DNA of 33,850 nt from positions 1 through 33,850 of IMG/VR virus record IMGVR_UViG_3300005356_000449. The stretch is one strand, 5' to 3'. Position 1 is the stretch's first letter. Each line of letters opens with the position of its first letter. Shown here piece after piece: positions 2,943-29,977 of this stretch. A program made the position numbers and the translations under genes. The notes below the pieces were generated by a model. It was not told the DNA's origin, made no database searches, and saw only the letters and a program-made list of their open reading frames with translations. This stretch comes from a virus.

Positions 2943-2951
2943 GAGTATCTG

Positions 2952-3860
2952 ATGCCGCTGATCCTCACCAACCGCTTCATCAACGGCGAGGTCGCTGACG
3001 CTGTCCCCGTCGACGGGAACGATCAGGCGATCCAGTCCTACATCAACTCCGAGGTCATCACCGCCGACGGCCTGACGCAGATGAGGGCCCCGCTGCTGTT
3101 GCGCAGTGGCGACCCAACCCAGCCCAATCACGCCGCCAACAAGGACTACGTCGACGCTCAGATGCCGATCGGCACGATGCTGATGTGGCCCGCGGTGGTC
3201 CCTCCCGCCGGGTCGAAGTGGCACCTCTGCGACGGCGGGGCGCTGGCTACGTCCGCCTACGCCATCCTGTTCGGTCTGCTCGACTACAAGTACGGCGGCA
3301 GCGGCGGGTCGTTCCTGCTGCCCAACCTGCAGGGACGCTTCCCGATCGGCTTCGACGCCACCAAGACGGCGTTCGATGTCATCGGCGAGGCGGGCGGCAC
3401 CTTCACCGTGCCGGTCCCGGCGCACGCCCACGACATGCCGCACGAACACGGCCTGTCCATCACGACATCGGTCGAGACCTCCGCCCACACCCACGGCATC
3501 AGCCCCACCGGCACGATCACCACGTCGAGCGACGGCGCCCACTCCCACAACTCGGCGTACATCAATCACTCTCTCCCAACCGCGGGAACCGAGGGGGTCG
3601 ATCGCAGCATGAACGCTGCCCCTCCGTACCCGACCGGCTACCTGCAGGCCGGTACCGATGTCCAGGGTGCCCACACCCACACTTACTCGGGCAACACCTC
3701 GGTCGAACAGGCCCTTCACACCCACGCCGTGAACGGCGTAACGAACGCCATCACTGCGGCGGCCACCGCCAACAACTCCGCCGCCCTGACCCCCACGGGC
3801 GTCACGACGACGATGGTCCAGCCCTACCTCACCGTCAACTTCATCATCAGGATCATCTGA
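2952..3860 (+). CDS. Tail collar domain fibre protein
   Basis: The gene has AGGAG at 2941-2945 and ATG at 2952; 302 aa. Residues ~54-70 (GDPTQPNHAANKDYVDAQ) are the linker common in phage fibres just before a collar domain. Residues ~72-135 match the phage tail collar family: PIGTMLMWP, GSKWHLCDGG, then FLLPNLQGRFPIGFD. The rest is rich in paired histidines (AHAHDMPHEH, AHTHG, AHSHN, AHTHTY, LHTHAV). In T4 gp12-like fibres such HxH pairs coordinate metal ions along a trimeric shaft. The C-terminus QPYLTVNFIIRII is the standard end of the family. It probably makes a short trimeric fibre or collar at the tail, possibly host-binding. Confidence 0.9.
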   Translation: MPLILTNRFINGEVADAVPVDGNDQAIQSYINSEVITADGLTQMRAPLLLRSGDPTQPNHAANKDYVDAQMPIGTMLMWPAVVPPAGSKWHLCDGGALATSAYAILFGLLDYKYGGSGGSFLLPNLQGRFPIGFDATKTAFDVIGEAGGTFTVPVPAHAHDMPHEHGLSITTSVETSAHTHGISPTGTITTSSDGAHSHNSAYINHSLPTAGTEGVDRSMNAAPPYPTGYLQAGTDVQGAHTHTYSGNTSVEQALHTHAVNGVTNAITAAATANNSAALTPTGVTTTMVQPYLTVNFIIRII

Positions 3861-4300
3861 TGCCCTACGTCGACTCCGGCTACTACGAATCTCAGCGCCG
3901 TGGGATCGACGATCAGTACGCCGCGCAGATGGCGTCGAACACGTTCGCCCGCACGCTCGCCCAGACCAGGGGCAACCGCGACCTCAACCTGATGACCCAG
4001 GGGTTCAAGCGCCAGACGCCGAGCTTCCTGGCTGGCTTCGGGCAGCGTGGATTCGGGGGCGGCGTGCGCAGCGGCGTGATGCAACGCTCGATGCAGAACT
4101 ACGTCAACGACTTCACGCAGCAGTACGGCACGGCGCAGAATGATCTCACCAGTCAGCTGCGTCAGTACGACCTGACCACCCAGCAGCTGGGTGCCGGGCA
4201 GGCGAACTCCTATGCCGAGCTCGAACTTCAGAAGGCGCGTGACATCGCCTACGCCGCGCAGAACATCGAGGCGCTACGCCAAGCATGGGGAGGTACCTGA
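3860..4300 (+). CDS. Small Gln/Arg-rich virion protein, possible internal protein (146 aa)
   Basis: The ATG at 3860 overlaps the stop of the collar gene. I do not recognise the family. The sequence is predicted helical, rich in Gln, Arg and Tyr, with segments such as YESQRRGIDDQYAAQ, LTSQLRQYDLTTQQLGAGQ and ELELQKARDIAYAAQ that look amphipathic. It contains one Gly-rich break (FGQRGFGGGVRSG). It is the first of four successive proteins of increasing length placed between tail parts and fibres, the position of internal virion proteins gp14-gp16 in T7-like phages. A role as the small, membrane-interacting ejection protein is inferred from that order alone. Confidence 0.7.
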   Translation: MPYVDSGYYESQRRGIDDQYAAQMASNTFARTLAQTRGNRDLNLMTQGFKRQTPSFLAGFGQRGFGGGVRSGVMQRSMQNYVNDFTQQYGTAQNDLTSQLRQYDLTTQQLGAGQANSYAELELQKARDIAYAAQNIEALRQAWGGT

Positions 4301-5433
4301 TGGCTCTGCCTTGGACATCGACCGGAGCGAGCAGCACCAGGAATACGTGGACGAACTTCCAGAAGCCGACGCCCGGTAGTGCTGCCGCCCAGAGGGTCGC
4401 CGCCAACGCCGCCAACTCGCGCGCCTTCAACGCGAGGAACGCTGCGGCGCAGGATGCTTCGGGTCAGCACACCGGCTTCTACTCGTGGTTCCAGCCGCCG
4501 GACCCCAGGACCTACAAGCCCAACGCCGTCGACCTGGCGCTGATGCGTGTTGGCGGCAACGCTGTCACCAATGCCTTCAACAATCAGCCCGCCCCTGCCG
4601 CCCCTGGCAGCCCCGGTGGCGGCGGTCGTGGTGGGTACGGCGGCGGCGGCGGTGGCGGCGGTGGACCGGCGGTCACCCAGGCGATGATCGACGCCCTCGC
4701 CCAGGCGCTCGGCGTGCATCCGGGCCAGCTGGGCTATACCCCGCTGCCCGCTTTCCAGGGCCAGGCGCTGCCAGCGTTCAACACCGCTCCCTATGACACG
4801 CAGCGCGCCCAGCTGGACCAGGCGGCGGCGCGCGACCAGGCCAACTTCAACACCAACCAGCAGGCCACCACCCAGGCGGTGCAGGGGGCGTACTCCAACC
4901 CCTACGCCAACGCCCAGGTGCAGGCGGGCGCGGCGACACCGCAGATGGGGGCGGGGCTGATGGCCACGGCGGGCGGCGTGACCGACCCGGCGCTGGCCCA
5001 GCAGATGAACGCCCAGAACGCCCAGAACCAGGGCTCGTTCCAGGACCTCTACCGGGTGCTCGGGGCCAACCAGCAGGCCAGTCAGAACTCACGCATGCAG
5101 CAGGTGGCGATGGATGCCAACTACGGGCGCCAGACGGCCGGGGCCCAGGTGGCCGGGCTGCAGGGCGGGATCGCCACCAACCAGGCCAACGCCCAGCAGG
5201 CCTACGCTCAGCAGCAGGCCGAGCGTGACTACCAGAACCAGCTGATGGCGTACCAGACCCAGATGCAGAACGCCCAGGGCCAGCAAGCCACCAACCAGGC
5301 CAACTGGACCCAGCAGAACGCCACCCTGCAGGCCCGCCTGCAGCCGGTGCTCGACCTGATCAGCCAGATCGGCGGGAGCAGCGGGCTCAATATCTCGGGG
5401 CTGATGCAGATGCTGCAGGGATTCGGGGCGTAA
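4300..5433 (+). CDS. Gln/Ala-rich virion protein with glycine hinge (377 aa)
   Basis: The start is ATG 4300, with GGAGG at 4288-4292; an in-frame ATG at 4285 lies before this ribosome site and is less likely. Residues ~1-100 are Asn/Ala rich. Residues ~104-122 form a near-pure glycine linker. From about residue 125 the protein becomes a long Gln/Ala/Asn helix-prone region (AQQMNAQNAQNQG, QQAYAQQQAERDYQNQ), with a short hydrophobic end (IGGSSGLNISGLMQMLQGF). No enzyme motif is seen. Such Gln/Ala-rich proteins are frequent among podovirus internal proteins. The gene overlaps both neighbours by one base, implying coordinated synthesis with the 854- and 3535-aa proteins. Function is unknown. Confidence 0.75.
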   Translation: MALPWTSTGASSTRNTWTNFQKPTPGSAAAQRVAANAANSRAFNARNAAAQDASGQHTGFYSWFQPPDPRTYKPNAVDLALMRVGGNAVTNAFNNQPAPAAPGSPGGGGRGGYGGGGGGGGGPAVTQAMIDALAQALGVHPGQLGYTPLPAFQGQALPAFNTAPYDTQRAQLDQAAARDQANFNTNQQATTQAVQGAYSNPYANAQVQAGAATPQMGAGLMATAGGVTDPALAQQMNAQNAQNQGSFQDLYRVLGANQQASQNSRMQQVAMDANYGRQTAGAQVAGLQGGIATNQANAQQAYAQQQAERDYQNQLMAYQTQMQNAQGQQATNQANWTQQNATLQARLQPVLDLISQIGGSSGLNISGLMQMLQGFGA

Positions 5434-7997
5434 TGAGCAACGACTACACACCGGGCGGTGGCGTCGACCCGACGATGATCCAGGCGCTGATCCAGATGCT
5501 GACGGGGATGGGCGGCAACCAGTCGTGGCAGGGCGCCGCCGATCCCAACCTGCTCAGCCAGTTGAGCTTCGGCTTCGACCCCACCCAGATGCAGAGCCTG
5601 TCGCTGCCGCAGATCCCCGGCACCTCCGAGCCCGATGACGTCGGCTACATCGAGGAGGCGAGCAAGCAGTACAACGTCTCCCAGGACCTCGTCAACCTGA
5701 CCGGCCTCGGCGACCTGGGCTACGCGGCGATGATGGGGCCGGGCAGCTTCGGCGCCAACACCTTTGAGCCGACCGTCACCAACGAGCTCATCCAGCAGCC
5801 AGCGACGCTGCAGTTCCAGCGCTACCTGGCCCCCGGTAACGAGGGCACCTTCGAGGGGCGCGTCGCTCGCGTCATCACCGGGGCCGACGCCGAGGGCAAG
5901 CCCGGTACCGTGTCCGAAGCCGTCGGGCAGATGCGCCGGGTCATCGAGTTCGCCGACGCCCACCCCGACGACGCTCAGGCCCAGGCCGACGCCGACCTGC
6001 TGCGCCCCTACCTGCCGTCCCAGACCTTCTGGGATCAGGGCATCGAGCACACGATCATCGACTGGTCGGAGGCGACACGCCGGGCCCAGGACCTCGTCGA
6101 CCCCTACCTCGCCGAGCAGTCGATCCAGCTGGGCCCGACCGGGGCGACCTACGATCCGGCCACCGGCAAGTCCACCCCCGGTGGAGAGATCGTCGAGATC
6201 GACGGCCAGCTGTACCGCCAGACCAGCACACCCTCGCCAGCAGCCGAGGACTTCCTCGAGGCGGGCATCCCGCCGCCCAACGAGCGCTACACCCCAGCCG
6301 ACATCCTCGGGCCCGACTGGACCCAGGCCAACGAGTCCTACCTGGCCTCGCTGCCCGGCCTGCACGACCTCTACGCCCAGTACCAGTCCGACATCGACCG
6401 GGCCAACGGCCGCGCCGAGATGCTCGGCGGCATGCCGATGCAGGAGTTCTACGACCGCAACTCGATCCCCGGCCAGGGTGGCGGCACGATCGACTTCCCC
6501 GATACCGGCGCCCCTCTTAGCAACGACATCGTTACCGCCATCGCCAACAATGCCGCTGGCGCGGTGGGCGAGGCGGCGGGCAACGCCGGGACCACGGCCT
6601 TCGACCTGGCCAGGCATGGCGCTTCCCTGCTCGGGGGCGGCATCGGCTGGGGCGCGACGGCGATGCGCGACTACCTCAACAGCGCTCTCGGCGGTCGCAC
6701 CGACAGCGCCGACATCCAGACCGAGCCAGGGGGGCAGGGAGCACCGCGCACCGTCGAGGAGGGCGCCGCGGCGCAGGGCAACTACGGCGAGTTGGGGTTC
6801 CGGGGCCAGCCCCTCCACCCGGCGCTGCGCCCTATGGGTGGCCAGACCCAGCCTCCGGGGCCGGGCGACGACAACAGCTACCTCGAGTACGTCCTCACCG
6901 CCAGCCCCGGCAACCGGCTGTCGTACGACGACTGGCTGGAGGCGCGAGCCGGGGCGGGGAACAACGTGCTCGGACCGGCGCCGACCGCCGCACCGGCACC
7001 TCAGCCGGGCGGGGGGACGACCCCGGCCGACCTCGGTCAGTTCTTCGGGGTCCAGCCCCCCGCGCCCGTACCGGCAGCGAACAATCCGGCTAGCCGCAAC
7101 GTCAACACGATGGCCTCGAACCCCGCTGCTGGCGGGCAGATCGACATCACGCAGCTGCCCTCGACCGCCCCGCCCCAGCCGGTGACCGGGCAGTACAACA
7201 CCAACACCCAGACCGCCTATCCCACCGGCCAGCCGGTGCTGCCGATGGGCGGGGCGGCAGCGAACAACCCGGCACTGCGCGGGCTCGGTGGCCAGACCGG
7301 CGGGCCCGCTGGTGGGCGGCTGAGCCAGGCTGGCATCGATGCCATGCTCACTGCCGCCCTGGCGCAGGGAAGCGGCGAGCCCTACGCCAACGAGCCCCAG
7401 TCCCGCACCAACCGCACGGCGACCGGCGGGCCCGTCGGCGGACGGCGGGACCAGGCCATGCTCGACGCCCTGCTCACTGCCGCCCTGGCCAGGGAGAACG
7501 AGCGCTACGCCATCGATCCTGCTGGTCGCACCAACCGCACTCCGACCGGCGGACCCGTCGGCGGGCGTGGCTATCAGCGCGAGAACATGACCGACGTCCT
7601 GAACTACGGACGTGGCAGCGGCACCCCGACCAGCGGGGCAGGCGGGGGCGGCGGGCGTGCCTCGTTCTGGAACCAGCTGTTCCCGCCGGACCAGCAGCCC
7701 GGCTACGTGGCGCCACCAGTGCTGCGCTACGGGACCGACACCCAGACCTCGGCCGGGCGCGTTCGTAACCGTCGTGATCTCGCCGTCGATCGCGAGCGGG
7801 CCAAGGCTGCCCGCGTCGAGAGCCAGGCCCGCGAGACCCGCTACGCCCAGAACATGGCCTACCGGGCCAACTACGGCCGTGACTACTGGCTGGCCCGCGG
7901 CTACACCGATCAGCTGGCCCGGATGGGGGTCACGCCGACGGCGATGGCGATCGCCAACCGCATCGGCGGCACCAACGCGACGCTCGGCCGCGGCTGA
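5433..7997 (+). CDS. Large virion-associated protein with disordered repeat region (854 aa)
   Basis: The ATG at 5433 overlaps the previous TAA. Residues 1-~330 look folded and mostly helical (LIQQPATLQFQRYLAPGNEG, VGQMRRVIEFADAHPDDAQA). A hydrophobic Ala/Gly segment lies at ~360-405 (ITAIANNAAGAVGEAAGNAG-like composition and LLGGGIGWGATAMRD). From ~430 to ~760 the chain is Pro/Gly/Gln-rich and likely disordered, and it carries two and a half copies of a 41-42-residue repeat. The last ~90 residues are basic and helical (NRRDLAVDRERAKAARVESQ), possibly DNA- or partner-binding. I know no named family for it. It sits where T7-like phages have gp15, so an ejection-complex component is the best inference. 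Confidence 0.75.
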   Translation: MSNDYTPGGGVDPTMIQALIQMLTGMGGNQSWQGAADPNLLSQLSFGFDPTQMQSLSLPQIPGTSEPDDVGYIEEASKQYNVSQDLVNLTGLGDLGYAAMMGPGSFGANTFEPTVTNELIQQPATLQFQRYLAPGNEGTFEGRVARVITGADAEGKPGTVSEAVGQMRRVIEFADAHPDDAQAQADADLLRPYLPSQTFWDQGIEHTIIDWSEATRRAQDLVDPYLAEQSIQLGPTGATYDPATGKSTPGGEIVEIDGQLYRQTSTPSPAAEDFLEAGIPPPNERYTPADILGPDWTQANESYLASLPGLHDLYAQYQSDIDRANGRAEMLGGMPMQEFYDRNSIPGQGGGTIDFPDTGAPLSNDIVTAIANNAAGAVGEAAGNAGTTAFDLARHGASLLGGGIGWGATAMRDYLNSALGGRTDSADIQTEPGGQGAPRTVEEGAAAQGNYGELGFRGQPLHPALRPMGGQTQPPGPGDDNSYLEYVLTASPGNRLSYDDWLEARAGAGNNVLGPAPTAAPAPQPGGGTTPADLGQFFGVQPPAPVPAANNPASRNVNTMASNPAAGGQIDITQLPSTAPPQPVTGQYNTNTQTAYPTGQPVLPMGGAAANNPALRGLGGQTGGPAGGRLSQAGIDAMLTAALAQGSGEPYANEPQSRTNRTATGGPVGGRRDQAMLDALLTAALARENERYAIDPAGRTNRTPTGGPVGGRGYQRENMTDVLNYGRGSGTPTSGAGGGGGRASFWNQLFPPDQQPGYVAPPVLRYGTDTQTSAGRVRNRRDLAVDRERAKAARVESQARETRYAQNMAYRANYGRDYWLARGYTDQLARMGVTPTAMAIANRIGGTNATLGRG
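7296..7575 (+). repeat. In-frame 41-42 codon tandem repeat in the 854-aa protein
   Basis: Repeat units start at 7296, 7422 and 7545 (spacing 126 and 123 bases), the last being partial. Each unit opens with TGGP(A/V)GGR, continues with a helix (DAMLTAALAQ or DALLTAALAR) and ends with a short SRTNRTAT or GRTNRTPT linker. The DNA copies are close but not identical, so the duplication is recent enough to see yet has been selected in frame. Confidence 0.8.
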
Positions 7998-10900
7998 TGC
8001 CCAACCTGCAGGACTACGTCAACCGCAACAACGCGGTCACGGCGTACTCCCCGACGCGGGTGCTCGACCGGCCGCGGGCCAACGCCGGGACGGCGCAGCG
8101 CATCCTGCAACAGCGCGCCGCCCCGGCGCAGTATCAGCCGCAGACCCAGGGCTTCCAGCTGGGCCAGACACCCGCTCAGCCGATGCCCCAGACCGGGGCG
8201 GTGCCCACTGCCCCCGCTCCGGTGCGCTCGCTGGCCGAGATGCTCGACCACATCCAAGGCGCCCCCGCGGTGGCGCCCGAGCAGGAGGGTCCCGGCGGAT
8301 GGAAGGGCTACCTCGGTACGGCGGTCAACAACCCGATCGGCAAGGCGATCATGGCCCCGCTCAGGGTGCTCGGCTACCCGCACGACATCGTCGTCTCGGG
8401 GGTCAACGAGCTCGCTGACGCCTTCAACGGGGGTGATGCCAGCTGGAGTGACTTCATCCGTCAGACCAGTGAGGGCATCGGCTTCGGTGATGTTGTCGGT
8501 TCGACCGGCAACATCTGGGCCGACCGCGCTATTGGGTTCATCGGCGACGTCGCCCTCGACCCGATGACCTACGTCTTCGGATCGGGAATCCTTGCCGGTG
8601 CCGGGCGCGAGGCCCGCCTCGGACTGGCCAGCCGTGTGTTCGAGCTCACCGGGGAGGAGGCGCTCTCGGCGCGGGTCGCCAAGCTCGGGCTGCACGCTCT
8701 CGACGACGCCAAGCGCGCCGAGCTCGCCGCCCTGAGCAGGGAGGCGGGCGGCATGTTCGTCGAGGGGGCGGAGAAGATCAAGCGCGCTGGCTACTACTTC
8801 CGCGCTCCGTTCACCGAGGCCGAGTTCCGCCTCCCGGCGTCGGCCACGATCGACCGCGTCCTCGGTGGTGGGTTCGCCCGCGCCCGCAGCGGCCTGGCTG
8901 CCAGCCCGCTCGGGGGCTGGTTCCGCAACCGCAAGATGGAGGAGGGCCTCGTCGAGGCTGCCGACCGTCTGCTCACGGGGCGTGGTGGGCAGAACTCGCT
9001 GGCGCTGTCGACCGCCCTCGAGACGATCAACGCCAACCAGGCCTACAAGCTGGGCAAGCGCTTCACCGCCCGCACCGCCGAGGCCGAGCTCGCTGCCACG
9101 CTGCGCGAGATCCCTCGGGGCATGTCGATGGCCGACTACACCGAGCTCGTCGAGCGGACCGGTGGCCAGCGTGGCAACACGATGATGGAGCGCTTCGCCA
9201 AGATGCTCGAAGAGGCGGGCATCCGCCACGGGCGCGTCGGGCCCGAGACCGAGGGCGGCGTCCACTACTTCCCGCGCTACATGACCCAGAAGGGCAAGGC
9301 CTGGTACACGGGGATCGAAGAGTCGATGGGCGGCAAGATCTTCGGGGCCGGGAACAGTCTGGATGAGTACTCGCCCTCGCTGATGACCCGCCACCTCACG
9401 GGCGGCGACGTCAAGATCAAGGACCTCGAGTTCCACTTCCCCGCCAACGCCACGACGCGCGACTTCAACACCGAGTTCCGCCGCGTCACCGGATCCAACT
9501 TCGACCTGTTCGAGGAGGACTTCGCCAAGGCGACGAAGCGCTACATCCAGAACCTCGCCGACGACGTCGGCCGCAGGACGGTGGCGAACCGGCTGGTCAA
9601 GTCGAAGGGCGGGCTGGTCCGCAGCTACGGCGATCACGAGGCGGTCAAAGAGATCGTCGACGACGTCAATACGAAGCTGCTCACCGAGAAGGCCGGGCAA
9701 GCGCTCAAGGACGAGCTCAACACCGTCGGCACGAACATGGACGAGATCCGCAACGAGGTCGCCCGCAACCTCCGCGGCATCTCGTCGGGCTTCCTCAAGC
9801 CCCGCTTCCAGCAGGTCATCGACGATCTCACCGCGCTGACGGCGCAGCAGCGCCAGTTCCTCACCGACTCGCTCGACCAGGACATCCGCTTCTCCGCCCT
9901 GCTCGGGCGCAGCACCTATGGGGCGGCACCCGGCTCGGCCCCCGGCTTCGGCACGCTCGACGCCGCACTCGAGAGGATCTGGAACGACACCGCGGCAGAG
10001 GTCGCCCGCCTTGGGTCCGAGCGCGCCGATGCGATGCGCGTCCTCGCCCTGCAGCACGACCAGCTGGTCGGCGAGCTTGCTGCCGTCCCGATCAACGCTC
10101 GCAACGCCGAGATGGCGGCACGCACCGAGGCCCGCCAGCGCATGCGCACCGCCGAGTTGGCGATGCTGCGCCTGCAGCAGGCCCGCTCGTCGGTGGAGTC
10201 GCTGCACAACCTGATCAACGAGGCGAGGATCAAGTCAGAGGCCGCTGGTCGGCTGGCTGACGACGCCGGGTTCCTGTCGCTGTTCCTGCCCGGTCAGGCC
10301 GAGGCGCGCCGGGCCGAGGTCGATGCCGCCCGCCAGGCGCTGGCGCCCGACGCCCGCACCCCGGTCTACGACCGCCCGGAGATGTCGACCGAAGCGATCA
10401 CCGGTCACTACAACCGCCAGCGCGAGATCGCGTTCGGGGCCCAGGCCCGCCAGCAGGTCGACGAGATCGCAAAGCGGTCCGAGGCCTTCGTCAAGTCACG
10501 CCGCGAGATGGAGGCGTACGTCGCCACCCACTCCAGTGCACTGGAGGGGGCAAGGCTCAAGCTCGAAGGCGACAGCCACGCCCTTGCCGTGATGCGAATG
10601 CGCCGCGACGACCTAATCGGCATCGCCGAGAAGCGCGCCGAGAAGAATGCTCTCGAAGAACAGATGCGCGAGTTCGAGCTCGGTCAGTTCGCCCAGTCAC
10701 GCGACGACTACGACAAGCTGCGCAAGGAGCTCGACTCCCTGCGCGAGACCGCCGAGGCCGACGCCCGCAGCCTCGCCGAGGCGCACAACGAACTGACCCG
10801 CACCGCCCGCCAGATCGACGAGACCCAGGCACGCGCCGCGGCCAACGATCTCGGGACCGTGCCGCAGGCGCCGGTCCATCCGCCGCTGACGATGGAGCCC

Positions 10901-13900
10901 GCCGCGGCAGCGGCAGCACGCGCCGATCGGGCGGCACTGCAGGCTGAACAGAAGGCATTCGCTGACTCGACCGAGGGGGCCAAGTACCTCGTACTGACCC
11001 GGCGACGTGAGCAGGCGGCAGCGGAGCAGACGGCAGCGAACGAGGTCCTCGAACTCGCCAGCGGCAAGAACACCCGGTACCTCCTCGACGAGAGCGGCAA
11101 CGTCCGGCTGCGCACGTCCAACAGCGTCGAGGGCTACAACGCGGCGCTCGAACTGCAGGACGTCGAGCGCGAGTACCAGCTGCTCAAGACGCGCATCCGC
11201 GCCGCCGAGTCGACGCGGCGCGAGACGCTGATCCGCAACGAAGCCAACGAGCTCAGCAATGCGGAGGCAGCGCGCATCGACCGCAAGGCCGAGGCCGAGC
11301 TCAATGAACTACGTCAGAAGCTGGGGGAGACGGCCCGCAGGCGCACCGCTGCCAACGAGCGCGTCAAGGCCAGCAACGCCCGCGGTGTCGTCACCAACGT
11401 CGAGCTCACCCAGCGCGAGATCGAGCGCATCACCGCTGCGGCGATCAAGACCAAGCGGATGCAGGCCGTGCTCGACGACCTCGACTCCAAGCTGACGTCC
11501 TATGACCACGTCCAGACGCGCGCTACCAAGATCGCCGATCTGGACCGCGACCTCGCCCAGCACGCCCGCCAGGTAGCCGAGCGCAAGGGACGCGATCAGG
11601 CCTACGCCGACGCCGTGCGCGCCTTCGAGGCCGGGCCGCAGCCCGCCAAGACATTGCCGTTCACCGGGGGGCAGCCACTGCCGTGGGGCGCCGACCAGGG
11701 GATGGGCCCCTTCGAGCGCCAGGCCCGCGACATCGCCCAGAAAGAGTCCGACGAACTGTCGCGCTCGGCCCGCTTCCTCGGCTGGAAGACCAAGTGGGAG
11801 GACGTGCCGCAGATCACCGACGCCGAGGCGCTCGGCCTGCGCGGGTTGACCCCTGATCAGCGGCTGGCCTGGAACCAGGCGACGGCGATCATCCGCGAGC
11901 GCGACGTCTTCACCGGGGGAGCGACCAACCCGATCGTGGTCCAGGCCCGCCAGACGATCTCGAACCTGCGCGCCGAGATGGGCAGGGTCATCGGCAGCAC
12001 CGACCAGCAGGCGGTGAACCGGCTGGAGCGGATGTACGACCAGCTGGACATGCTCGCCGAGGCACGCGGCGCCTTCGACCCGACGGCGGTGCAGCGCGCG
12101 GCGATCGAGGGCAAGGTCAAGCTGCCCCAGGCGCTCGCTGAATACGAGGCCGGGCTCGGTGAGCGCGAGCTCGCTCGGGGCACGATGTCCCAGCGCGAGG
12201 AGGCGATGCGCGCTCTCGCCAAGGGCGCGGGCAAGGGCAAGGCGGCTAAGCAGAACGTCAGCTACGAGATCGCCGACCGGGCCCGCCGCTCGTACCGCCT
12301 GGCCCGCTACATGCGCGACACCCACATGCCCACGCTCGTCGAGCGCGGTGCGCTGCCCGAGGCTGACTCGGTGCTCGGGCGCGTCGACGTCGCCGAGTAC
12401 ATCACCAACTCGATCGCCGATCTCGGCCAGGCGCTCGAGCACTACGGGGCCAACCCGACCAGCTTCGCTGTCAACCGGCTGGAGCAGAAGGCCGCGGACG
12501 TCAACCGCATGGCCGAGTTCATGGTCCGCTACAACCGTGCTATCGAGACGGGCGTCGAGCCCTCTGACTCGGTGGCGGCGTACCTGCTGACCGTGCAGTT
12601 GGGCCGCGAGTCCGAGACGCTGGGCAAGCAGATCGAGCGGGCGACCAAGGCCCTCGACGCCAGCACGCCGTCGGTGATGTACCGCCGCTGGCAGGCCACC
12701 TTCGGGACCAAGCTGCCCGAGGAACTGCAGGCAGCCCGCCTGACCGGCGAGCAGATGGAGGAGCTCCGCCACCTCTCCAAGACCATCCCGCTCGAAGATC
12801 AGATCGCCACCGACGAGCGCCTGATCACCGAGCTCGAAGCACGCAAGCTCGACGGGACGTGGGACTCGGCTGCCAAGTCCAAGGTCACCGTCGCCCGCAA
12901 CCGCATCGACCGCAACAAGCAGGCGCTCGCTCAGTTGGCACAGCAAGCTCCGTCGACCAACGGCACGATCAACGAGTTGCTCAACCGCGTCGTCACCGAG
13001 ATCGAGAGCCAGATCCACGAGCTCGACTGGGCGGTCACCGACTTCAACGACGCCCGGCACATGGTCCGCGACGCCCAGGCGATCGGCGAGCACCGGGTCC
13101 GCCTCGAAGCAGCGATCGAACGCGGCGACGGGATGCTCTCCGAGTTCGACGACGGGGCCACCCGCCTGCGCAACGCCGTCGCAGCCGCCGAGGCCGACGG
13201 CACGGGCGTCGTCAGCTACACGCCGCTGATCCAGGACAACTTCCTGATGACGGTCGAGCAGGCACGCAACGCCCTGGACTCGGGCGAGGTTCCGGCGTAC
13301 CTGCGCTCCGCCTACCAGGCGGCGATCGATCGCGCCGAGCGCGGCGCCGAGGGCGTCAACGTCACCTCGATCCAGCGGGTGCGCGAGGAGTTGGCGCGCC
13401 TGGACGAGCTCGCCACCCTCACGGGTGAGCAGCAGGTTCGCCGCCGCGGTCTCCAGCAGCGCGTCGCCTCGTTCGAGGAGCGCTCGGCGCAGGTGGTGCA
13501 GGCAGGCGAGACCGTCCGCAGCCTCGAGGCCAAGCGGCGGCTCGGTGAGCGGCTGACCAACGCAGAGCAGCGCGACTTCGACGCCGCCCAGCGCCTGGTC
13601 GCTTCCGACGAGCAGCGCGCAGCACGCTCGACGCTCAAGCCCAAGCGCCAGCGCAAGGTGTCGAACCCTGCGATCCAGGCCTACGCCGAACTGCACGGGG
13701 TCGACCCGACCCACGTCATCTCGACGAACCAGCTGCGCCAGGGCCAGGACGTCGTCCAGATCCCGCTCGCCGACGCCATCAAGATGGCCGACGACAACGA
13801 CCGCGCCCTCGAGTCCCTGCGCGCTGCGCAGGGCAAGCGCCAGATGCGCCTCGCCGCCCTCGACGGCACGATCAACAAGGACCTGCGCCTGCAGCGGGCG

Positions 13901-16900
13901 GTCATCGCCGACCAGATGGGCGAGACGCTCCCCGACCCGAAGGTGTTGCAGCGCACGATCGACGAGATCAACGCCCGCGCCCGGCGGCGTCGTGCCCCCG
14001 GCCGCGAGACGTACCAGCCGGACCAGCTGGCCGAGGCGATGGCTGCTGCCGAGCGGCCCGTCGACCCCACCCTGACCTCGGGCAAGCTCTTCCCGCACGA
14101 GAAGGACCTGGTCAACCTCACCCAGGGCAGGATCGACGCCATCCGCCAGTTCGGGAACATGACCCCCGAGCAGCTGACCGCGGCACGCAACCACCTCGAC
14201 GAGATGACCAAGGTCATCGACGAGACACGGGGCATGCTCGGCGACCACTTCGATCTCGCCGCGGCGACCGCCGACCACGGGGCGCAGTTCCTCAGCGACC
14301 TGGTCGGCGGACACATGGAACTGACCAGCCGCGGACTGGAGGCGCTGCACTCCATCTACGGCCCGGAGGCGGGCGAGCAGGTCGGCGTGTTCATCAACGC
14401 CCTGCACGGATTGATGGGGGTCGAGGGCCCGACGGCGGAGGACATGCGCACCCTGCTCGCTCAGTTCAACCGCCCCCCGGTGACGGGCCCGGCTGCCTCG
14501 CTGCTGTGGCGCACCACCGACCCCAGCCTGGAGGATCTGCGGCAGCTGCGCGAGGCGATCCTCAACATCCCCAACGCCGAGATGGACGAGGTGCGCGCCG
14601 CCAACCGGATCGGCTGGCTGCAGGGCATCGACGAACTGCTGCAGCCGAGGATCCCAGCGGGCAAGGTGCTCAGCGCCGACGAGGTGGGCGAGGTGTTCCG
14701 CGGTCTGGGGATGGTGCTCGGCGATGACGTGGGGCTGCTGCGCGAGGCCGAGAGCCATGTGATGAACATGATCTCGGGGGGCGAGCTCATCACCGACGAC
14801 ACCCTGCGCGACGCCTTCCGCGATCAGCTGACCGCAGCGGCCAAGGCGCATCACTCCGACGAGCTCAAGAAGTCCACCGACCTGATCACGATGCTCGGGC
14901 TCAGCTTCGCTCCCGGCACGCCTGGGTTCAACGGCAAGCTGCAGTCGCTCGGCTACTCCATGTCGCGCCAGGCCCTCGATCGTCAGAAGCTTCGTCGCTT
15001 CGTCGTCGACAGCTTCAGCCGCATCGGGATCCTCGCCGACGAGACAGCACGCGAGCGGCTGATCACGCTGACGATGCGGCGCAAGCGCGTCGACGACATG
15101 CGCATCGGGCTCGGGGCGGTGGTCAAGGACCTGCCGATGGAGGATCCGCGGCTGGCCTTCGAGGCGCTCGGCCAGCACTCGATGGATGCGGTCGCCGACT
15201 TCGACCGTCAGCTATCGGCGTTCCGCGCCGGGGTCCTGCCCGAGGGTGTCGAGGACAAGATTATCGACCGCGCCGCCAAGCTCGAGGAGCAGATGCAGCG
15301 CGCCGTCGAAGCCAACGACTACGACCGGATCAACGAGATCCGTGAGATGCAGGATCAACTCGACGACCGGGCGCTGACCCAGCCCGGCGAGCCGCCACCC
15401 GGTGGCGAGCCCACGCCCGAGGCCCCGCAGGTCGACTACGCCACACAGCTGAATGACGCGGAGACCAAGGCAGCCAACGCCCACGACACGCTGAACAACG
15501 CCCAGCTGGCGCTGAACCAGGCGAAGGAGACGCAGGCGGGCGCGCAGGTGGCCGAGGTCACTGACCCCGGCCTGATCCCCGAACTCCAACGCCATCCCGA
15601 CACGCCCGAAGGCAAGATCTCTCACGGTGAGGTGCTGCTCGCCTCGCTCGACTTCGACCGCGAGTTGGAGGCAGCGGCAGGCCACGAGGCTGCCGAGATC
15701 GCTGCGATCAACCACTACCAGGACATCGTCCGTCAGGCATGGGAGGGCGAGCCGAAGGCCTCGGTGAAGGCAGCGAGCGATGCCTGGGCCGAGTTCCAGC
15801 GCGGCGGCTCGGCACCGGGGCGCACGACCAACGAGCTCGACGCCGCCCAGTCGGCGTTCGATCAGGCCAAGGCCGCAGCTGACGAGGCCGACAGCGCGGT
15901 GACCAAGCTGCGCCAGACCGGCCCGGCCGAGACCGTGGCGCCCGAGACGCCGTCGAAGTCGCTCGGTGAGGTGGACGCTGCTGCCCACGCCCAGGACCCC
16001 GACCAGCTGCTCGACTGGAACTCGGCCAGCCAGGCCTACGACGAGGCGGTGGCCAGGCTGCAGGCCCTCGACGAGCAGGACCTCAACCTCGACCAGATCA
16101 ACAACCTGCCTGCCGCCGAGCGTGACGAGGCGCAGGCCGTGATGATGGACGCCGCCGAGCAGGAGCGGGCGGTGGCGGCAGCACGGGTGCGCAAGCTGGG
16201 CCAGCGGCGCGCCGAACTGTGGCCGCAGGAGCGCGCTCGCCTCGAGGTCGCCCGGCGCGAGGCGCAGGCACAGGCGCTCAAGCAGACCGTGATCCAAGGC
16301 GAGACGGTGCCGCAGCGTGCGGTCACCTGGCAGTGGGCCCAGGTGCTGACCAAGGGCACGCCGTCGGTCGATGTGCTGCGCCGCGGTCGCGGCATCCCAT
16401 CCCAGACGATGGTCGAGGCGGGCCAGCAGGTCGGCAAGATCGGCAACATCGTCGCCGACGTCACCGGGATCCGCTCGTCGATGTCGGGCCCGTTCCGCCA
16501 GGGTGCGATGCCCGCCATCGAGTCACGGTTGGAGGCCCAGCTGGCACCGGTCGACGCGATGAAGGCCTCGCTGCGCCAGGCCCGTGACACCGCCGCCACC
16601 GAGCGCAGCCGGTTGGAGACGCTGGCCAACGCCTACACGGGCGACCCCGCTTCCATCGACGCCGAGATCGCTGCCCGCCAGGCCGAGGCAGCCGAGGCGC
16701 AGGCGTTCCTGTCCGGCGTGCCCGGTGCCACCACGGCAGCGGAGATGGAGGCGACGCTGCGCCCGCAGATCGCCGACACCAAGGCTGCTGCGGTCGAGGC
16801 CGACCGCGCTGCCGCCGAGGCGATGGCCGAGCAGCAGGCCCGCTGGGAGGCAGCACAGCGCGTCTACACCGACGCCGTGACCACCGCCGACCGCGGGCTG

Positions 16901-18604
16901 GCGGCGGTGCGCACCCGGATCGTCGACACCGAGGCGAGCCTGGCCCGCGACGAGAGGGCCCTGGCTCGGGCCAAGGCCCTCGACTTCCAGGGGGTCAACG
17001 GCTCGGACTTCCGCCAGCACTGGAACGACCTGCGCGATCTCAACGAGTCGCGCCGCGAGATCGTGCGCCAGGGTCCGCCGCGCCCCGGCGGTCCGCTGCC
17101 TCCACCTACCCGCGAGGTCGGCGGGCCCGAGTTGTTCGACGACCTCAACGACATCAACATGATCCAGCGCCTGCTCGCCGGGGCCGACGACCAACTCCGC
17201 CAGCTGGAGGGGGTCGAGCTCAGCCACGCCGAGATCGTCAAGCGGCTCAAGGACTTCGAGTCGGGAGCAACCGGGGTGGCCGACGTGATGAAGTTCCAGA
17301 TCCGCGACGGCTGGGTCCCGATGATCCCGCGCCTGGCCCAGGGCAGCGACGCGCTGTACGTCCGCACCGAGTTGCACCGCGCCATCAACAACCTCTACGA
17401 GGCGCAGCGCAGGCCGCAGACGTGGAGCTTCATCGCCGACTCCTACACCCAGTTCTTCAAGACCTACGCCACCGCCACGCCCGGCTTCCACATCCGCAAC
17501 TGGATCAGCGGCGTGTTCATGAACCTCGTCGACGGCGTGCGCATCCGCGAGATGCGGCGCTCGGGTGGGATCTGGAAGGACTTCCTCAAGGACCCGATCA
17601 ACTACTTCGACAATGCCGAGCCCGACGTGCAGCGTGCGCTGCAGGCGGTGTTCGGTTCGGGCGCCGCCGGTCGGTTCGCCGAGGGCGAGGTCGGCAACGT
17701 CGGACGCGGTCACATCCTCAACAACGCCTTCACGCGTTGGAACCAGCGCCGGGGCGCCAACGTCGAGGGCTCGCTGCGCCTGGCGATGGCACTCGACTCG
17801 GTGCACAAGGGGATGAACCTCGGAGCGGCGATGGATCGCATCACCCGCTACCACTTCGACTACTCCTCGCTCTCGTCGCTCGATCACCAGGCGCGCAAGC
17901 TGATCCCGTTCTGGACGTTCATCTCGCGCAACATCCCGCTGCAGATCGAGTCGATGTGGGCCCGGCCGCGGACCTACCTGCAGTACCAGCACTTCGTGCG
18001 CAACTTCGGTGAGGCCGCTGACCCTCTCACCCCCGACTACTGGCTGAGCCAGGGTGCGTTCACGATGGACCCGAACGCGGCGAAGGAAGACTCCCCGTGG
18101 TACCTGGCACCCGACCTGCCGTTCCTGCGGGTGGCCGAGCCGTTCGTGGCGCTGGCACAGGGCGACGTCGGGCGCGCCACCGCGGGCAGCGTCAACATCA
18201 ACCCGGCGATCGCCGCCCCGCTCGAGGCGTTCGCCTTCGGCCGCAAGCTGTACACCGGTCAGGACATCAACAAGGAGTACAACGAGCCAACGGCTGCGAT
18301 GCGCCCACTGATGGGGCTGCTCGGTGCACTCGGTGGCACGCGCGAAGGCGGCACCTCGGGCGACCAGCTGCTCGACGACCGCTACGCCCACGTCCTGCGC
18401 TCGACGATCCCGACCCTCAACCTGATCGAGCGACTGTTCAACAACGAGGGCGTGCGTACCGGGCGACAGGACGAGACGGTCGCCCGAGCCCTTGGCCTAC
18501 CCGTGCTACAGCTGACCCCCGAGCTCAGGGAATCGACGCGCAAGGGCGCTTACTACGATGCCCGCGACGAGATGTTCAGCCAAGCTGACCTTGCGAGGAA
18601 GTGA
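7997..18604 (+). CDS. Giant internal virion / ejection protein (3535 aa)
   Basis: One uninterrupted frame of 10.6 kb starts at ATG 7997, overlapping the previous stop, and ends at TGA 18602-18604. Residues ~1-90 are a Gln/Pro-rich leader. About 100-200 holds Ala/Gly-rich hydrophobic helices (AIGFIGDVALDPMTYVFG). From ~450 to ~2450 the protein is dominated by charged Ala/Glu/Arg helices with coiled-coil character. A proline linker (GEPPPGGEPTPEAP) lies near 2465, with more coiled coil to ~3080. The C-terminal ~450 residues are a distinct domain with ATPGFHIRNWISGVFMN (~3160) and FDYSSLSSLDHQ plus IPFWTFISRNIPLQ (~3285-3310). This resembles a signature I recall in giant podovirus virion proteins and large polyvalent proteins. 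No lytic transglycosylase or protease motif was found by eye. Best inference: the gp16-like ejection protein. A tape measure is less likely because the surrounding tail genes are podovirus-like. Confidence 0.85.
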   Translation: MPNLQDYVNRNNAVTAYSPTRVLDRPRANAGTAQRILQQRAAPAQYQPQTQGFQLGQTPAQPMPQTGAVPTAPAPVRSLAEMLDHIQGAPAVAPEQEGPGGWKGYLGTAVNNPIGKAIMAPLRVLGYPHDIVVSGVNELADAFNGGDASWSDFIRQTSEGIGFGDVVGSTGNIWADRAIGFIGDVALDPMTYVFGSGILAGAGREARLGLASRVFELTGEEALSARVAKLGLHALDDAKRAELAALSREAGGMFVEGAEKIKRAGYYFRAPFTEAEFRLPASATIDRVLGGGFARARSGLAASPLGGWFRNRKMEEGLVEAADRLLTGRGGQNSLALSTALETINANQAYKLGKRFTARTAEAELAATLREIPRGMSMADYTELVERTGGQRGNTMMERFAKMLEEAGIRHGRVGPETEGGVHYFPRYMTQKGKAWYTGIEESMGGKIFGAGNSLDEYSPSLMTRHLTGGDVKIKDLEFHFPANATTRDFNTEFRRVTGSNFDLFEEDFAKATKRYIQNLADDVGRRTVANRLVKSKGGLVRSYGDHEAVKEIVDDVNTKLLTEKAGQALKDELNTVGTNMDEIRNEVARNLRGISSGFLKPRFQQVIDDLTALTAQQRQFLTDSLDQDIRFSALLGRSTYGAAPGSAPGFGTLDAALERIWNDTAAEVARLGSERADAMRVLALQHDQLVGELAAVPINARNAEMAARTEARQRMRTAELAMLRLQQARSSVESLHNLINEARIKSEAAGRLADDAGFLSLFLPGQAEARRAEVDAARQALAPDARTPVYDRPEMSTEAITGHYNRQREIAFGAQARQQVDEIAKRSEAFVKSRREMEAYVATHSSALEGARLKLEGDSHALAVMRMRRDDLIGIAEKRAEKNALEEQMREFELGQFAQSRDDYDKLRKELDSLRETAEADARSLAEAHNELTRTARQIDETQARAAANDLGTVPQAPVHPPLTMEPAAAAAARADRAALQAEQKAFADSTEGAKYLVLTRRREQAAAEQTAANEVLELASGKNTRYLLDESGNVRLRTSNSVEGYNAALELQDVEREYQLLKTRIRAAESTRRETLIRNEANELSNAEAARIDRKAEAELNELRQKLGETARRRTAANERVKASNARGVVTNVELTQREIERITAAAIKTKRMQAVLDDLDSKLTSYDHVQTRATKIADLDRDLAQHARQVAERKGRDQAYADAVRAFEAGPQPAKTLPFTGGQPLPWGADQGMGPFERQARDIAQKESDELSRSARFLGWKTKWEDVPQITDAEALGLRGLTPDQRLAWNQATAIIRERDVFTGGATNPIVVQARQTISNLRAEMGRVIGSTDQQAVNRLERMYDQLDMLAEARGAFDPTAVQRAAIEGKVKLPQALAEYEAGLGERELARGTMSQREEAMRALAKGAGKGKAAKQNVSYEIADRARRSYRLARYMRDTHMPTLVERGALPEADSVLGRVDVAEYITNSIADLGQALEHYGANPTSFAVNRLEQKAADVNRMAEFMVRYNRAIETGVEPSDSVAAYLLTVQLGRESETLGKQIERATKALDASTPSVMYRRWQATFGTKLPEELQAARLTGEQMEELRHLSKTIPLEDQIATDERLITELEARKLDGTWDSAAKSKVTVARNRIDRNKQALAQLAQQAPSTNGTINELLNRVVTEIESQIHELDWAVTDFNDARHMVRDAQAIGEHRVRLEAAIERGDGMLSEFDDGATRLRNAVAAAEADGTGVVSYTPLIQDNFLMTVEQARNALDSGEVPAYLRSAYQAAIDRAERGAEGVNVTSIQRVREELARLDELATLTGEQQVRRRGLQQRVASFEERSAQVVQAGETVRSLEAKRRLGERLTNAEQRDFDAAQRLVASDEQRAARSTLKPKRQRKVSNPAIQAYAELHGVDPTHVISTNQLRQGQDVVQIPLADAIKMADDNDRALESLRAAQGKRQMRLAALDGTINKDLRLQRAVIADQMGETLPDPKVLQRTIDEINARARRRRAPGRETYQPDQLAEAMAAAERPVDPTLTSGKLFPHEKDLVNLTQGRIDAIRQFGNMTPEQLTAARNHLDEMTKVIDETRGMLGDHFDLAAATADHGAQFLSDLVGGHMELTSRGLEALHSIYGPEAGEQVGVFINALHGLMGVEGPTAEDMRTLLAQFNRPPVTGPAASLLWRTTDPSLEDLRQLREAILNIPNAEMDEVRAANRIGWLQGIDELLQPRIPAGKVLSADEVGEVFRGLGMVLGDDVGLLREAESHVMNMISGGELITDDTLRDAFRDQLTAAAKAHHSDELKKSTDLITMLGLSFAPGTPGFNGKLQSLGYSMSRQALDRQKLRRFVVDSFSRIGILADETARERLITLTMRRKRVDDMRIGLGAVVKDLPMEDPRLAFEALGQHSMDAVADFDRQLSAFRAGVLPEGVEDKIIDRAAKLEEQMQRAVEANDYDRINEIREMQDQLDDRALTQPGEPPPGGEPTPEAPQVDYATQLNDAETKAANAHDTLNNAQLALNQAKETQAGAQVAEVTDPGLIPELQRHPDTPEGKISHGEVLLASLDFDRELEAAAGHEAAEIAAINHYQDIVRQAWEGEPKASVKAASDAWAEFQRGGSAPGRTTNELDAAQSAFDQAKAAADEADSAVTKLRQTGPAETVAPETPSKSLGEVDAAAHAQDPDQLLDWNSASQAYDEAVARLQALDEQDLNLDQINNLPAAERDEAQAVMMDAAEQERAVAAARVRKLGQRRAELWPQERARLEVARREAQAQALKQTVIQGETVPQRAVTWQWAQVLTKGTPSVDVLRRGRGIPSQTMVEAGQQVGKIGNIVADVTGIRSSMSGPFRQGAMPAIESRLEAQLAPVDAMKASLRQARDTAATERSRLETLANAYTGDPASIDAEIAARQAEAAEAQAFLSGVPGATTAAEMEATLRPQIADTKAAAVEADRAAAEAMAEQQARWEAAQRVYTDAVTTADRGLAAVRTRIVDTEASLARDERALARAKALDFQGVNGSDFRQHWNDLRDLNESRREIVRQGPPRPGGPLPPPTREVGGPELFDDLNDINMIQRLLAGADDQLRQLEGVELSHAEIVKRLKDFESGATGVADVMKFQIRDGWVPMIPRLAQGSDALYVRTELHRAINNLYEAQRRPQTWSFIADSYTQFFKTYATATPGFHIRNWISGVFMNLVDGVRIREMRRSGGIWKDFLKDPINYFDNAEPDVQRALQAVFGSGAAGRFAEGEVGNVGRGHILNNAFTRWNQRRGANVEGSLRLAMALDSVHKGMNLGAAMDRITRYHFDYSSLSSLDHQARKLIPFWTFISRNIPLQIESMWARPRTYLQYQHFVRNFGEAADPLTPDYWLSQGAFTMDPNAAKEDSPWYLAPDLPFLRVAEPFVALAQGDVGRATAGSVNINPAIAAPLEAFAFGRKLYTGQDINKEYNEPTAAMRPLMGLLGALGGTREGGTSGDQLLDDRYAHVLRSTIPTLNLIERLFNNEGVRTGRQDETVARALGLPVLQLTPELRESTRKGAYYDARDEMFSQADLARK

Positions 18605-18606
18605 CG

Positions 18607-21519
18607 ATGGCTACCCCCACCACCACGATCGACGCCCTGCCCCCGGCATCATCGGTCAACGGCACTCAGCTGGTCATCATCCAGGAGGCGGGCGTCACCA
18701 AGAAGGCGTCGGTCGACAGCATCGCCACCTACCTCGAGGACCATCTCTCGATCCCGTTGACGGCTGCGGAGATCAGCGCCCTGGCCAACCCGAACATCGC
18801 CGGGACCACGGTGCAGTCACAGCTGACCGACATCATCGCCAAGCTCTCGACGGTCGATACCGGCAGCAACGTCTGGCTGCGCTGGACCGGGACGCAGGCA
18901 GAGTACGACGCCCTCGGTACCTACCGCACCGACACCATCTACGCCATCACCGGAGCGGGCGGCGACCCGGCTGGGTCCCTGTCTGCGCCGCAGAACGTCC
19001 ACGCCCTGGCCGGTGACACCACGGTCACGGTCAGCTGGAACGCCCCGGCCAGCGGCACGCCGACCAGCTACAGCATCGAGCGCTCGACGGTGTCGAACTC
19101 CGGGTTCGTCCCCGTCAACCTCACCCCGATCCCGGCGACCACGTACTCGTTCCTCGACGCGCCGCTGACCAACGGGGTCACCTACTACTACACCGTCACC
19201 GCCCATGACGCGGGCGGCAACTCGACGGCCAGCGTGGTGGTCAGCGTCGTGCCGGTGAGCAGCGCCCCGACCGTGCCCGGTGTGCCGACCAACGTCGTCG
19301 CCATCGCCGGGCCCTCGTCGGTGACGATCAACTGGCTGGCCCCCATCTCCAACGGGAACTCGCCGATCACCGGCTACGTCGTGCAGCAGTTGATCAGCGG
19401 CACCTACACCACCGTCGCCACGGTGAACGGCACCACCTTCTCGCGGCTGGTCTCGGGACTGACCAACGGGACGCCGTACTCGTTCCGGGTCTACGCCGTC
19501 AACGCCGTCGGCAACGGTGCCTTCAGCCCGGTGGTCACTGCCACCCCGACGACCGGTGCCACCGCGCCCAGCGCACCGACCAGCCCCGTCGCCACTGCCG
19601 GTATCGCAGAGGTCACCGTCACCTGGGGGGTGCCTGCCTCTGATGGTGGGGCGGTGCTGAACACCTACCTCATCGAGCGCTCGACGCTGCCGTCGTCCGG
19701 GTTCACCGTCGTCGGGACCAACGCTGCCGAATCCCCGCGCACGTTCACCTCGACGGCGCTCACTCCCGGCACCACCTACTACTTCCGGATCACGGCACAG
19801 AACGTCATCGGCACCAGCCCGGCCACCGCCATCGTCAATGCCGTGCCGACGGCACCGGTCGGCCCGCCGCCGACGGACTGGGCGACCGCCTTCGCCACCC
19901 GCGACCTCGACATCATCACCGCTTGGTACAACACCTACACCGGCTACGACAGCGACAGTTTCGCTGGCACCCTGTGGGGTCCGGGCCAGTCGAACTACGC
20001 CTACATCGACGCCGCCTGGCTGACCGCCAACACCGGGCCCAACGTCGTGTTCTCCGCCGGGCGGTGGACGGTCACCGGGTTCCACGCCGCGGCGTTCGTC
20101 GTCCGTGCCAGCAACATCACGTTCAGCCACTGCTTCTGCGACCGCTTGTCGGGCACTGTCGGCCACGGACTCGACCTGTCCGGCGACGTCACCGGCATCA
20201 TCTTCGACCACTGCACGATCGCCGGGAACTACGGCATCAGCGGCGAGTGGGGCGTCACGCTCGACTACTTTGCCGACAACCACGCTGCCAACAGCCTGAT
20301 CATCCGCTACTGCGACATCAGCGGGTACATCGCCGGGTGCCAGATGTGGTTCGGCACGACGTTGGAGTACTCGTGGGTGCACGACCTGTACATCACGTTG
20401 GAGTCGCACAACACGGCGGCGTCGATCCGTGGTGAGAACTGTTCGATCTACCGCAACCTGCTGACCGACGGCAACTCCTCGGCGGTGTCGCTCTACGCCG
20501 ACTCCACTCCCTTCACCAACTTCTCCCTCGTCGAGAACGTCATGACGACGAACAACGCCGACTACACCATCAACTTCGGCGAGCGGGACCCGGACCACTG
20601 GAACCGGCTGTACGACCCGATCACCGGGGCGCCGATCACCTCGACGTACGGCTTCCGCCGCGAATGCCTCGGCAACCTGATGGTGCCCGCCAACGTCGGC
20701 CTCGGCTCGGACATGGCGTACTTCACGAAGGTCAACGACAACAGGCGGCTCAGCGACAACAGTCCGACCTTCTTCGACGAGGGCGGCACGCCGGTCGCCA
20801 CGCAGCCGTACTTCCACAAGATGCGCTACAACGAACTGGGCGGCGGGATCCTCGACTCGATGCCGACCTACGAGTTCACGCCGACACCGAATTCGACGGT
20901 GCTGGTGTTCGTCGGCATCGTCAACGGCGGGCACGCCACCACCCAGGCACCGACGGTGACGGCGATCGGCCAGTACCCGCAGACCTCGTTCGTCAAGATC
21001 CTCGAGACGCCGTTCACCTCTCCGCCCGGTGACGACAACCACGGGCTGGGCCTGTTCGTGTACAAGGCGGAGTCGGGGTCGACCACCTCGTTCGAGCACA
21101 TCGTCGTCGACCCGTACGTCGGCCCGGCGGCGGGCTACTTCACGATCTGGGTCTACGAGTTGACCGGCATGACCGGGCTGTCACTCGCCCACTCATCGGC
21201 CAAGGCCCAGTCGATCACCAGCTTCGGTGCCACGTTGAGCTCGATCACCTCGAACAACCTGTCGGCGGCGGCGACGACGGGGCGGGTGTGCATGGCGTTC
21301 GCTGCCGGTGCATCGACCGCGCCGGTCGGTCCCAACCCCTACGGCAACGTCACCGGCTGGAACAAGACCGGCGTGCAGCCGACGACGATGCACAGCGGCT
21401 TCCCGTTCGTGACCGGTGCGGTGTACTGGCGCAAGGACTTCACCGGCACCAACATCACCATCCCCAGCCTCGGTGTCGACACCTACTCGGCTGGCGTACT
21501 ACTCGCGGAGTTCGCATGA
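18607..21519 (+). CDS. Tailspike: three FN3 domains plus beta-helix
   Basis: GAGGAA at 18595-18600 favours ATG 18607 over the GTG at 18601, giving 970 aa. Residues ~1-60 ([20 protein letters not shown]) look like the particle-attachment head found on podovirus fibres. Three fibronectin type III domains follow at ~123-217, ~223-315 and ~322-417, each with a conserved Trp strand ([24 protein letters not shown]) and a Tyr strand ([15 protein letters not shown]). Residues ~490-650 look like a right-handed beta-helix of the pectate-lyase type ([42 protein letters not shown]). The last ~200 residues are a beta-rich domain. Beta-helix spikes often bind or cleave surface polysaccharide, but I cannot point to catalytic residues here. 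Confidence 0.85.
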
Positions 21520-23024: not shown

Positions 23025-23032
23025 ATGTAGAT

Positions 23033-23046: not shown

Positions 23047-23055
23047 GCGTGTCGC

Positions 23056-24662: not shown

Positions 24663-24764
24663 ATGAGTGACACGCCACCGTACGAACCAGCTGTCGATCC
24701 CGATGAGGTGCCCGAGCCGGACGTCGACGCCGACGAGGACATCGACGAGGAGGACGACGAGTGA
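24663..24764 (+). CDS. Very acidic small protein (33 aa)
   Basis: GGGGAGG at 24650-24656 gives a strong ribosome site for ATG 24663. Nearly half of the 33 residues are Asp or Glu, ending DADEDIDEEDDE, with prolines in the first half. It directly precedes and overlaps the endolysin start (GTG 24761). Such an acidic peptide next to basic ones (the 69- and 42-aa products) could pair with them or act as a translational coupler for the lysin. No family is recognised. Confidence 0.6.
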   Translation: MSDTPPYEPAVDPDEVPEPDVDADEDIDEEDDE

Positions 24765-29970: not shown

Positions 29971-29977
29971 GGTTCTT

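Follow-up and report, generated by a model that had tools for sequence, protein, structure and literature searches.

The gp16-like ejection proteins that have been reviewed comprise 609–1337 residues and come mainly from phages of Gram-negative hosts, with none in the phi29-like phages of Gram-positive bacteria; membrane-spanning segments are predicted for proteins of this type, and P22 gp16 lacks a transglycosylase (PMC8954989). In T7, gp16 (1318 residues) is the product of the last and largest internal virion gene, located directly ahead of the tail fibre gene in the order gp11-12-14-15-16-17. SU10 possesses the ejection proteins gp20–gp24, the largest of which (gp24, 1473 residues) is encoded at the end of the cassette. 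These proteins leave the virion upon genome release, and an extension of the nozzle is the role supposed for ejection proteins of the SU10 type (PMC9509320). Considerably larger are the virion RNA polymerases (vRNAPs) of N4 (gp50, 3,500 residues, 4 ± 1 copies per virion) and DEV (gp71, 3,398 residues), which are ejected as single chains (PMC12633501, PMC10925440).

Here, we analysed a stretch of virus DNA of 33,850 bases (the window), probably a fragment of a virus genome, in which one gene occupies 31% of the sequence and encodes a protein of 3535 residues and 388 kDa, hereafter the giant. We propose that the giant probably serves a short-tailed phage with P22/SU10-type gene content as its large ejection (internal virion) protein, i.e., as the counterpart of T7 gp16, SU10 gp24, and the vRNAPs of N4 and DEV. 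We base this proposal on a gene arrangement equal to that of the T7 and SU10 ejection genes, together with a weak structural and sequence likeness. A preliminary description of the window took T7 gp16, with about 1300 residues, as the usual comparison, which leaves out the ejected vRNAPs of DEV and N4 with their 3,398–3,500 residues. Because of these proteins, the size of the giant has a precedent, and large size is not itself new. What appears to be new is a largely uncultured family of elastic length in podovirus-type phages with probable actinobacterial hosts, for which we suggest the role of an ejection protein.

Reading frame and family of the giant protein

The gene starts with ATG and runs without an internal stop, confirming the single uninterrupted frame that the preliminary description had reported. 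The probability of an equally long stop-free run at the base composition of the window is about 5e-35. An independent contig (L003) contains a frame of 3559 residues with 62% identity to the giant over 3561 columns, i.e., over the full length, and pN is smaller than pS in each 250-codon segment of the comparison between the two homologues (dN/dS of 0.37–0.79 across the segments, values inflated by GC-rich third positions). The giant gene is therefore coding over its entire length. Its start overlaps the stop of the upstream gene by 1 base (CTGATG) and its stop overlaps the start of the next gene by 4 bases (GTGA); the giant is translationally coupled to both neighbours. An open frame of 1289 residues lies antisense to the giant (11309–15178, minus strand). 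This frame and several other long antisense frames look like a by-product of GC-rich codon use.

The preliminary description had suggested defining the family by a profile search with the C-terminal end. We searched viral contigs with the last 506 residues of the giant and then with profiles of both ends, which recovered more than 100 relatives. Complete frames numbered 131, of which 87 were left after the removal of near-duplicates, and each is a single chain. The giant is the long form of a widespread, previously undescribed family, mostly from actinobacterial short-tailed phages. The total length of the 87 non-redundant complete members varies from 1074 to 3945 residues, as taken on frames measured from the upstream stop. 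The end modules are constant, and the middle between them ranges from about 70 to 2461 residues; members totalling 1074–1109 residues have both end modules and a middle of only about 70–125 residues. The N-module, of about 450–500 residues across the family, is recognised by GFxGD[VL]AxDP (in a longer form, GFxGDVALDPxTY). The C-module comprises about 400–500 residues and carries YTxFFKTYATxxPGFHxRN and PFWTFxSRNLPLQ (also written YTQFFKTYATxxPGFHxRN and PFWTFxSRNxPLQ). A few frames that give no score with the N-profile still have room for an N-module, and those that were aligned carry it (NFVLDVTHDP and similar). A fusion of separate genes was rejected as the origin of the giant, since in no relative seen were the two modules encoded by complete genes of their own. 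Relatives whose C-modules are more than 50% identical have nearly the same length (median difference of about 50 residues), and length diverges with evolutionary distance (permutation 0/2000).

The only cultured relatives found are Microbacterium phage Shocker gp37 (about 1743 residues) and a protein of Cellulosimicrobium phage DS1 (6593–11944, about 1783 residues), both about half the length of the giant but belonging to the same family and lying in the same adaptor-nozzle context. The C-module search directly reached only two uncultured complete genomes; Shocker (E 1e-15) and DS1 (E 3e-14) came via a relative, with ctEqG8 as the query. An N-module tblastn search against cultured phages gave no match, segments of the middle used as queries were either too variable or matched the same virus only, and bacterial and archaeal genomes contributed a single weak match, in a Clostridium MAG. 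Actinobacteria are the probable hosts of the family, as indicated by WhiB genes in 5 of the 26 records and by the bacteria that Shocker and DS1 infect.

Compared with the end modules, the middle of the family members contains more KRDE (0.29 vs 0.22–0.26) and fewer aromatic residues (0.05 vs 0.07–0.10), as well as less proline and glycine. We modelled residues 2340–3535 of the giant (pLDDT 72.9, pTM 0.45). In the model, residues 2340–3040 are entirely α-helical with helices of up to 85 residues, and the nearest solved structures are unrelated coiled coils such as colicin receptor-binding hairpins and the MukB elbow; gp16 entries were not returned. The charged coiled coil that the preliminary description saw as dominating the frame applies to the middle and not to the end modules. 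The complete sequence of the giant had no match in Pfam, PHROGs, NCBIfam, or PADLOC, PDB sequence searches with profiles of both modules and of the middle returned nothing meaningful, and phmmer of the middle retrieved no PDB sequence. No enzyme domain was found in the 48 members examined: the 20 whole members yielded coiled-coil families and domains of unknown function and nothing else, each in one member, and 28 further middles had no Pfam domain. Internal duplication as the origin of the insert was rejected, as the middle has no self-match at E<=1.

Gene neighbourhood

In the window, genes for an SU10-type adaptor, a nozzle, a collar fibre, a 145-residue protein, and two variable proteins precede the giant, and fibre genes follow it (Table 1). 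Among the fetched loci, homologues of the adaptor occur in 79, next to the counts given for the nozzle and the 145-residue protein in Table 1. In 68 of 79 informative loci, the giant is preceded by the adaptor-nozzle-(collar)-145-residue protein order, whole or partial but including the adaptor or the nozzle. A nozzle homologue is found ahead of the giant in all but nine of the 79 loci with enough upstream sequence, in the order just given, of which one or more members went undetected in some loci. The 145-residue protein, encoded close upstream of the giant, is conserved to about the same extent as the giant and may, judging from sequence, be the small pore-type ejection protein of these phages. 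The 382- and 854-residue proteins are of low complexity and conserved in the closest relatives only; their slot (1.6–3.4 kb in the measured loci) is kept and their sequence is not.

Table 1. Positions of the cassette genes, the parts of the giant, and downstream genes in the window
Feature	Position	Strand	Basis
SU10-type head-tail adaptor	526..1206	+	PF24175 E=1e-15
Nozzle-type tail protein, start approximate	1182..2942	+	phrog_3287 2.6e-15; conserved in 95 loci
Tail collar / short fibre protein	2952..3860	+	PF07484 9.6e-14
Small conserved 145-residue protein, candidate small ejection protein	3863..4300	+	85 loci; phrog_4287 'DNA ejection protein', weak, E=0.0023
Gln/Ala/Gly-rich 382-residue protein, fast evolving, candidate member of the ejection cassette	4285..5433	+	Position
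854-residue fast-evolving protein, candidate middle ejection protein	5433..7997	+	Position; stop overlaps giant start
Giant, 3535 residues, 388 kDa, proposed large (gp16-slot) ejection protein	7997..18604	+	Reading frame, L003 homologue, family
Conserved N-module, residues ~89-570	8261..9706	+	Alignment A2; present in family members
N-module signature GFIGDVALDPMTYV, residues 180-193	8534..8575	+	Alignment
Variable middle, residues ~571-3040, charged, all-α where modelled, no recognisable domain	9707..17116	+	
Conserved C-module, residues ~3041-3535	17117..18601	+	Alignment A1
C-module signature YTQFFKTYATATPGFHIRN, residues 3150-3168	17444..17500	+	Alignment A1
C-module signature PFWTFISRNIPLQ, residues 3304-3316	17906..17944	+	Alignment A1
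FN3-containing tail fibre	18601..21519	+	fn3 5.5e-33; start overlaps giant stop
Candidate wall hydrolase, PG-binding with M15/VanY-like N-terminal half	24761..25528	+	PG_binding_1 1.8e-8; M15-type residues by eye

The complete relatives carry podovirus-type genes as well. The complete-genome relative ct52p938 has an SU10-type portal (SU10_portal 8.5e-23) and adaptor (SU10_adaptor 6.8e-19), Shocker has an SU10-type adaptor (SU10_adaptor 5.5e-29) and a P22-type portal (P22_portal 1.3e-12), and DS1 has the adaptor (SU10_adaptor 1.3e-22). The Shocker gene matching the SU10 adaptor family (L165 11678–12322) is publicly labelled 'tail tube protein', a label that is probably wrong on the strength of this match.

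Relationship to podovirus ejection proteins

The giant resembles T7 gp16 in being the last gene of the internal virion cassette, downstream of the adaptor and nozzle genes and ahead of the fibre and lysis genes, and its surroundings match the T7 order, in which gp14-15-16 precede the fibre gp17. With SU10 the window shares the adaptor family and, through the relatives of the giant, the portal type, as well as the position of the largest protein at the end of the cassette. However, SU10 has a different gene set between the nozzle and the ejection genes, and hhalign of the giant family to gp24 detected no similarity.

The structural likeness was examined with a family member of 1073 residues, modelled with a pTM of 0.75. 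Of 872 aligned PDB chains, the top four all belong to podovirus cores or ejectosomes, those of cyanophage A4 (Z 6.0), T7 (Z 5.6), PhiM1 (Z 5.1), and E1004 (Z 4.9). Each match is weak, as a Z of at most 6 lies under the level that the tool calls trustworthy for helical proteins; the weight of this structural evidence lies in the coincidence of all four top chains and not in the single Z values. Together with the gene slot, the four chains support the placement among podovirus ejection proteins made in the preliminary description. Profile-profile alignment (hhalign) to T7 gp16 gave four collinear short segments with E of 0.003–0.3 and a probability of at most 10%: DPLTYV/DPLSYV, YVPH, an ExD...Y...DxG segment, and the PGFHxRN region. 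Taken singly, no segment is significant, and block-shuffled decoys score just as high over single segments. The motifs in common with T7 are missing from gp16 of SP6, phiKMV, and P-SSP7. Should the correspondence be right, the insert would be located between residues ~816 and ~928 of T7 gp16.

The giant also differs from T7 gp16 in several respects. It has no significant sequence similarity, an insert that reaches about 2,460 residues in the family, and no transglycosylase. Searches of Pfam, NCBIfam, and PDB sequences found no match to an N-terminal lytic transglycosylase domain and bore out the absence of transglycosylase and protease motifs noticed earlier. Since P22 gp16 lacks this domain too, it is not required of the wider class of ejection proteins. 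The maximum 19-residue hydropathy of the giant (mean Kyte-Doolittle 1.14) is lower than that of gp16 proteins (1.44–1.64), with the T7 gp16 control itself at 1.44; the giant has no obvious transmembrane helix, at odds with the hydrophobic N-terminal helices previously attributed to it.

The main rival to the ejection-protein reading is a delivery module with variable cargo. The giant would then be an injected effector of the polyvalent type, in which the C-module serves delivery or packaging (LPD38 class) and the middle is a cytoplasmic cargo for DNA binding or host inhibition rather than a conduit. Over about 500 columns and with a probability of 1.00, the C-module indeed has a fold-level match in parts of phage proteins that bear the name 'Large polyvalent protein associated domain (38)', among them records whose names mention Zeta-toxin and methylase domains, and polyvalent proteins, whose genes lie among the late genes, are presumed to be injected (PMC5512222). 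However, the disparate enzymatic domains that define such proteins, two or more per chain, were found in none of 48 members, and members with a middle of 70–125 residues make any cargo dispensable. A search with the PF18857 (LPD38) model was silent in every record, controls included, and thus weighs little either way. We consider the effector reading unlikely. A virion RNA polymerase hidden in the middle is hardly credible. The vRNAPs of N4 and DEV are nearly identical to the giant in size (3.4–3.5 kaa) and occupy the corresponding position in their ejection operons (PMC10925440, PMC12633501), and there is one weak structural match to a vRNAP fragment of a Roseobacter phage (E 7.3e-3). Yet the giant matches no RNA polymerase family in Pfam, PHROGs, or NCBIfam, the modelled part of the middle consists of helices only, no PDB sequence was retrieved with the middle, and the short members have no space for such an enzyme.

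An elastic helical middle between conserved ends, with a length that tracks lineage, would also be expected of a tape-measure protein setting the length of a tail, and BFVD yielded a small number of tape-measure matches, all very weak (probability at most 0.15). The SU10 adaptor, the P22/SU10 portal, and the nozzle nevertheless indicate podovirus-type gene content, the supposed tail tube gene of Shocker is of the SU10 adaptor type, and neither the giant nor the searched members match a tape-measure family. A confident match to siphovirus tape measures, the result that the preliminary description had named as one that would refute its reading, was not seen. Given the gene content, a tape-measure function seems highly improbable. 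The middle could instead be a host-specific ruler, its length fitting the depth or architecture of the envelope and setting the reach of a trans-envelope conduit. The near-constant length among close relatives and its divergence with distance are consistent with a ruler, as is the idea that SU10-type ejection proteins extend the nozzle (PMC9509320), but phylogenetic inertia alone explains the correlation between length and distance, and hosts are known for few members. Moreover, a helix of 2,461 residues would measure about 370 nm (by arithmetic), far longer than any envelope. We therefore rejected length as linear reach and regard the ruler as very unlikely. The very long conduit or merged functions that the preliminary description read from the size are likewise unsupported, given the short middles and the lack of an enzyme in 48 members.

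Proposed role of the length-variable middle

What we observe in the family is constant end modules, an elastic helical middle, a conserved place in the cassette, and no recognisable enzyme. If the giant is a large ejection protein, as we favour, established podovirus biology suggests that a few copies would be packaged inside the head, close to the portal, and would exit ahead of the DNA by way of the portal-adaptor-nozzle channel. The functional work would fall to the N- and C-modules, which would dock onto other ejection proteins and the inner membrane and contact DNA. The middle would consist of helical bundles and coiled coil in series, able to unfold or to thread a channel of about 3.5 nm, and would presumably re-form beyond the channel as a wall- or membrane-spanning extension, part of a trans-envelope route. 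Its length would drift with lineage, and it would encode no enzyme. More speculatively, the middle might act as a length-tuned and functional part of a Gram-positive DNA ejectosome. In actinobacterial phages, the large ejection protein would then itself build the route through the thick wall by means of its coiled-coil insert, with an insert length particular to each lineage, and this route would replace the periplasmic tunnel known from Gram-negative podoviruses; we give this extension of the model little credence.

On the proposed reading, the size of ejection proteins would extend from the reviewed 609–1337 residues (PMC8954989) to about 3,900, and an ejection cassette would be placed in phages of monoderm actinobacteria (Microbacterium and Cellulosimicrobium). 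Natural length variants from about 1,070 to about 3,900 residues with the same ends are available together with the cultured phage Shocker, which makes the purpose of the bulk of an ejection protein directly testable.

The opening of peptidoglycan is probably carried out by another gene product. In the window, the candidate is the putative wall hydrolase (Table 1), whose sequence on visual inspection shows M15-type residues (SNHEG...AVAID...EPWHIQ). In ct52p938, the homologue of the giant is closely followed by an M15 (VanY) gene. Between the FN3 fibre and hydrolase genes, a collagen-like tail fibre (GPTGPTGAT) is followed by a LamG-domain protein (PF13385, 7.7e-11; 21510–23742 for both), which are likely adhesion modules. 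After the hydrolase gene, a short frame (25722–26192) has a hydrophobic start and then a long Thr/Ser-rich stretch of low complexity, and its product is possibly lysis-related or anchored to the wall. Further downstream, the minus strand encodes an AAA-type ATPase of 568 residues (28357–30063; phrog_10440 1.6e-31), which recurs downstream of the giant and on the opposite strand in about ten relatives.
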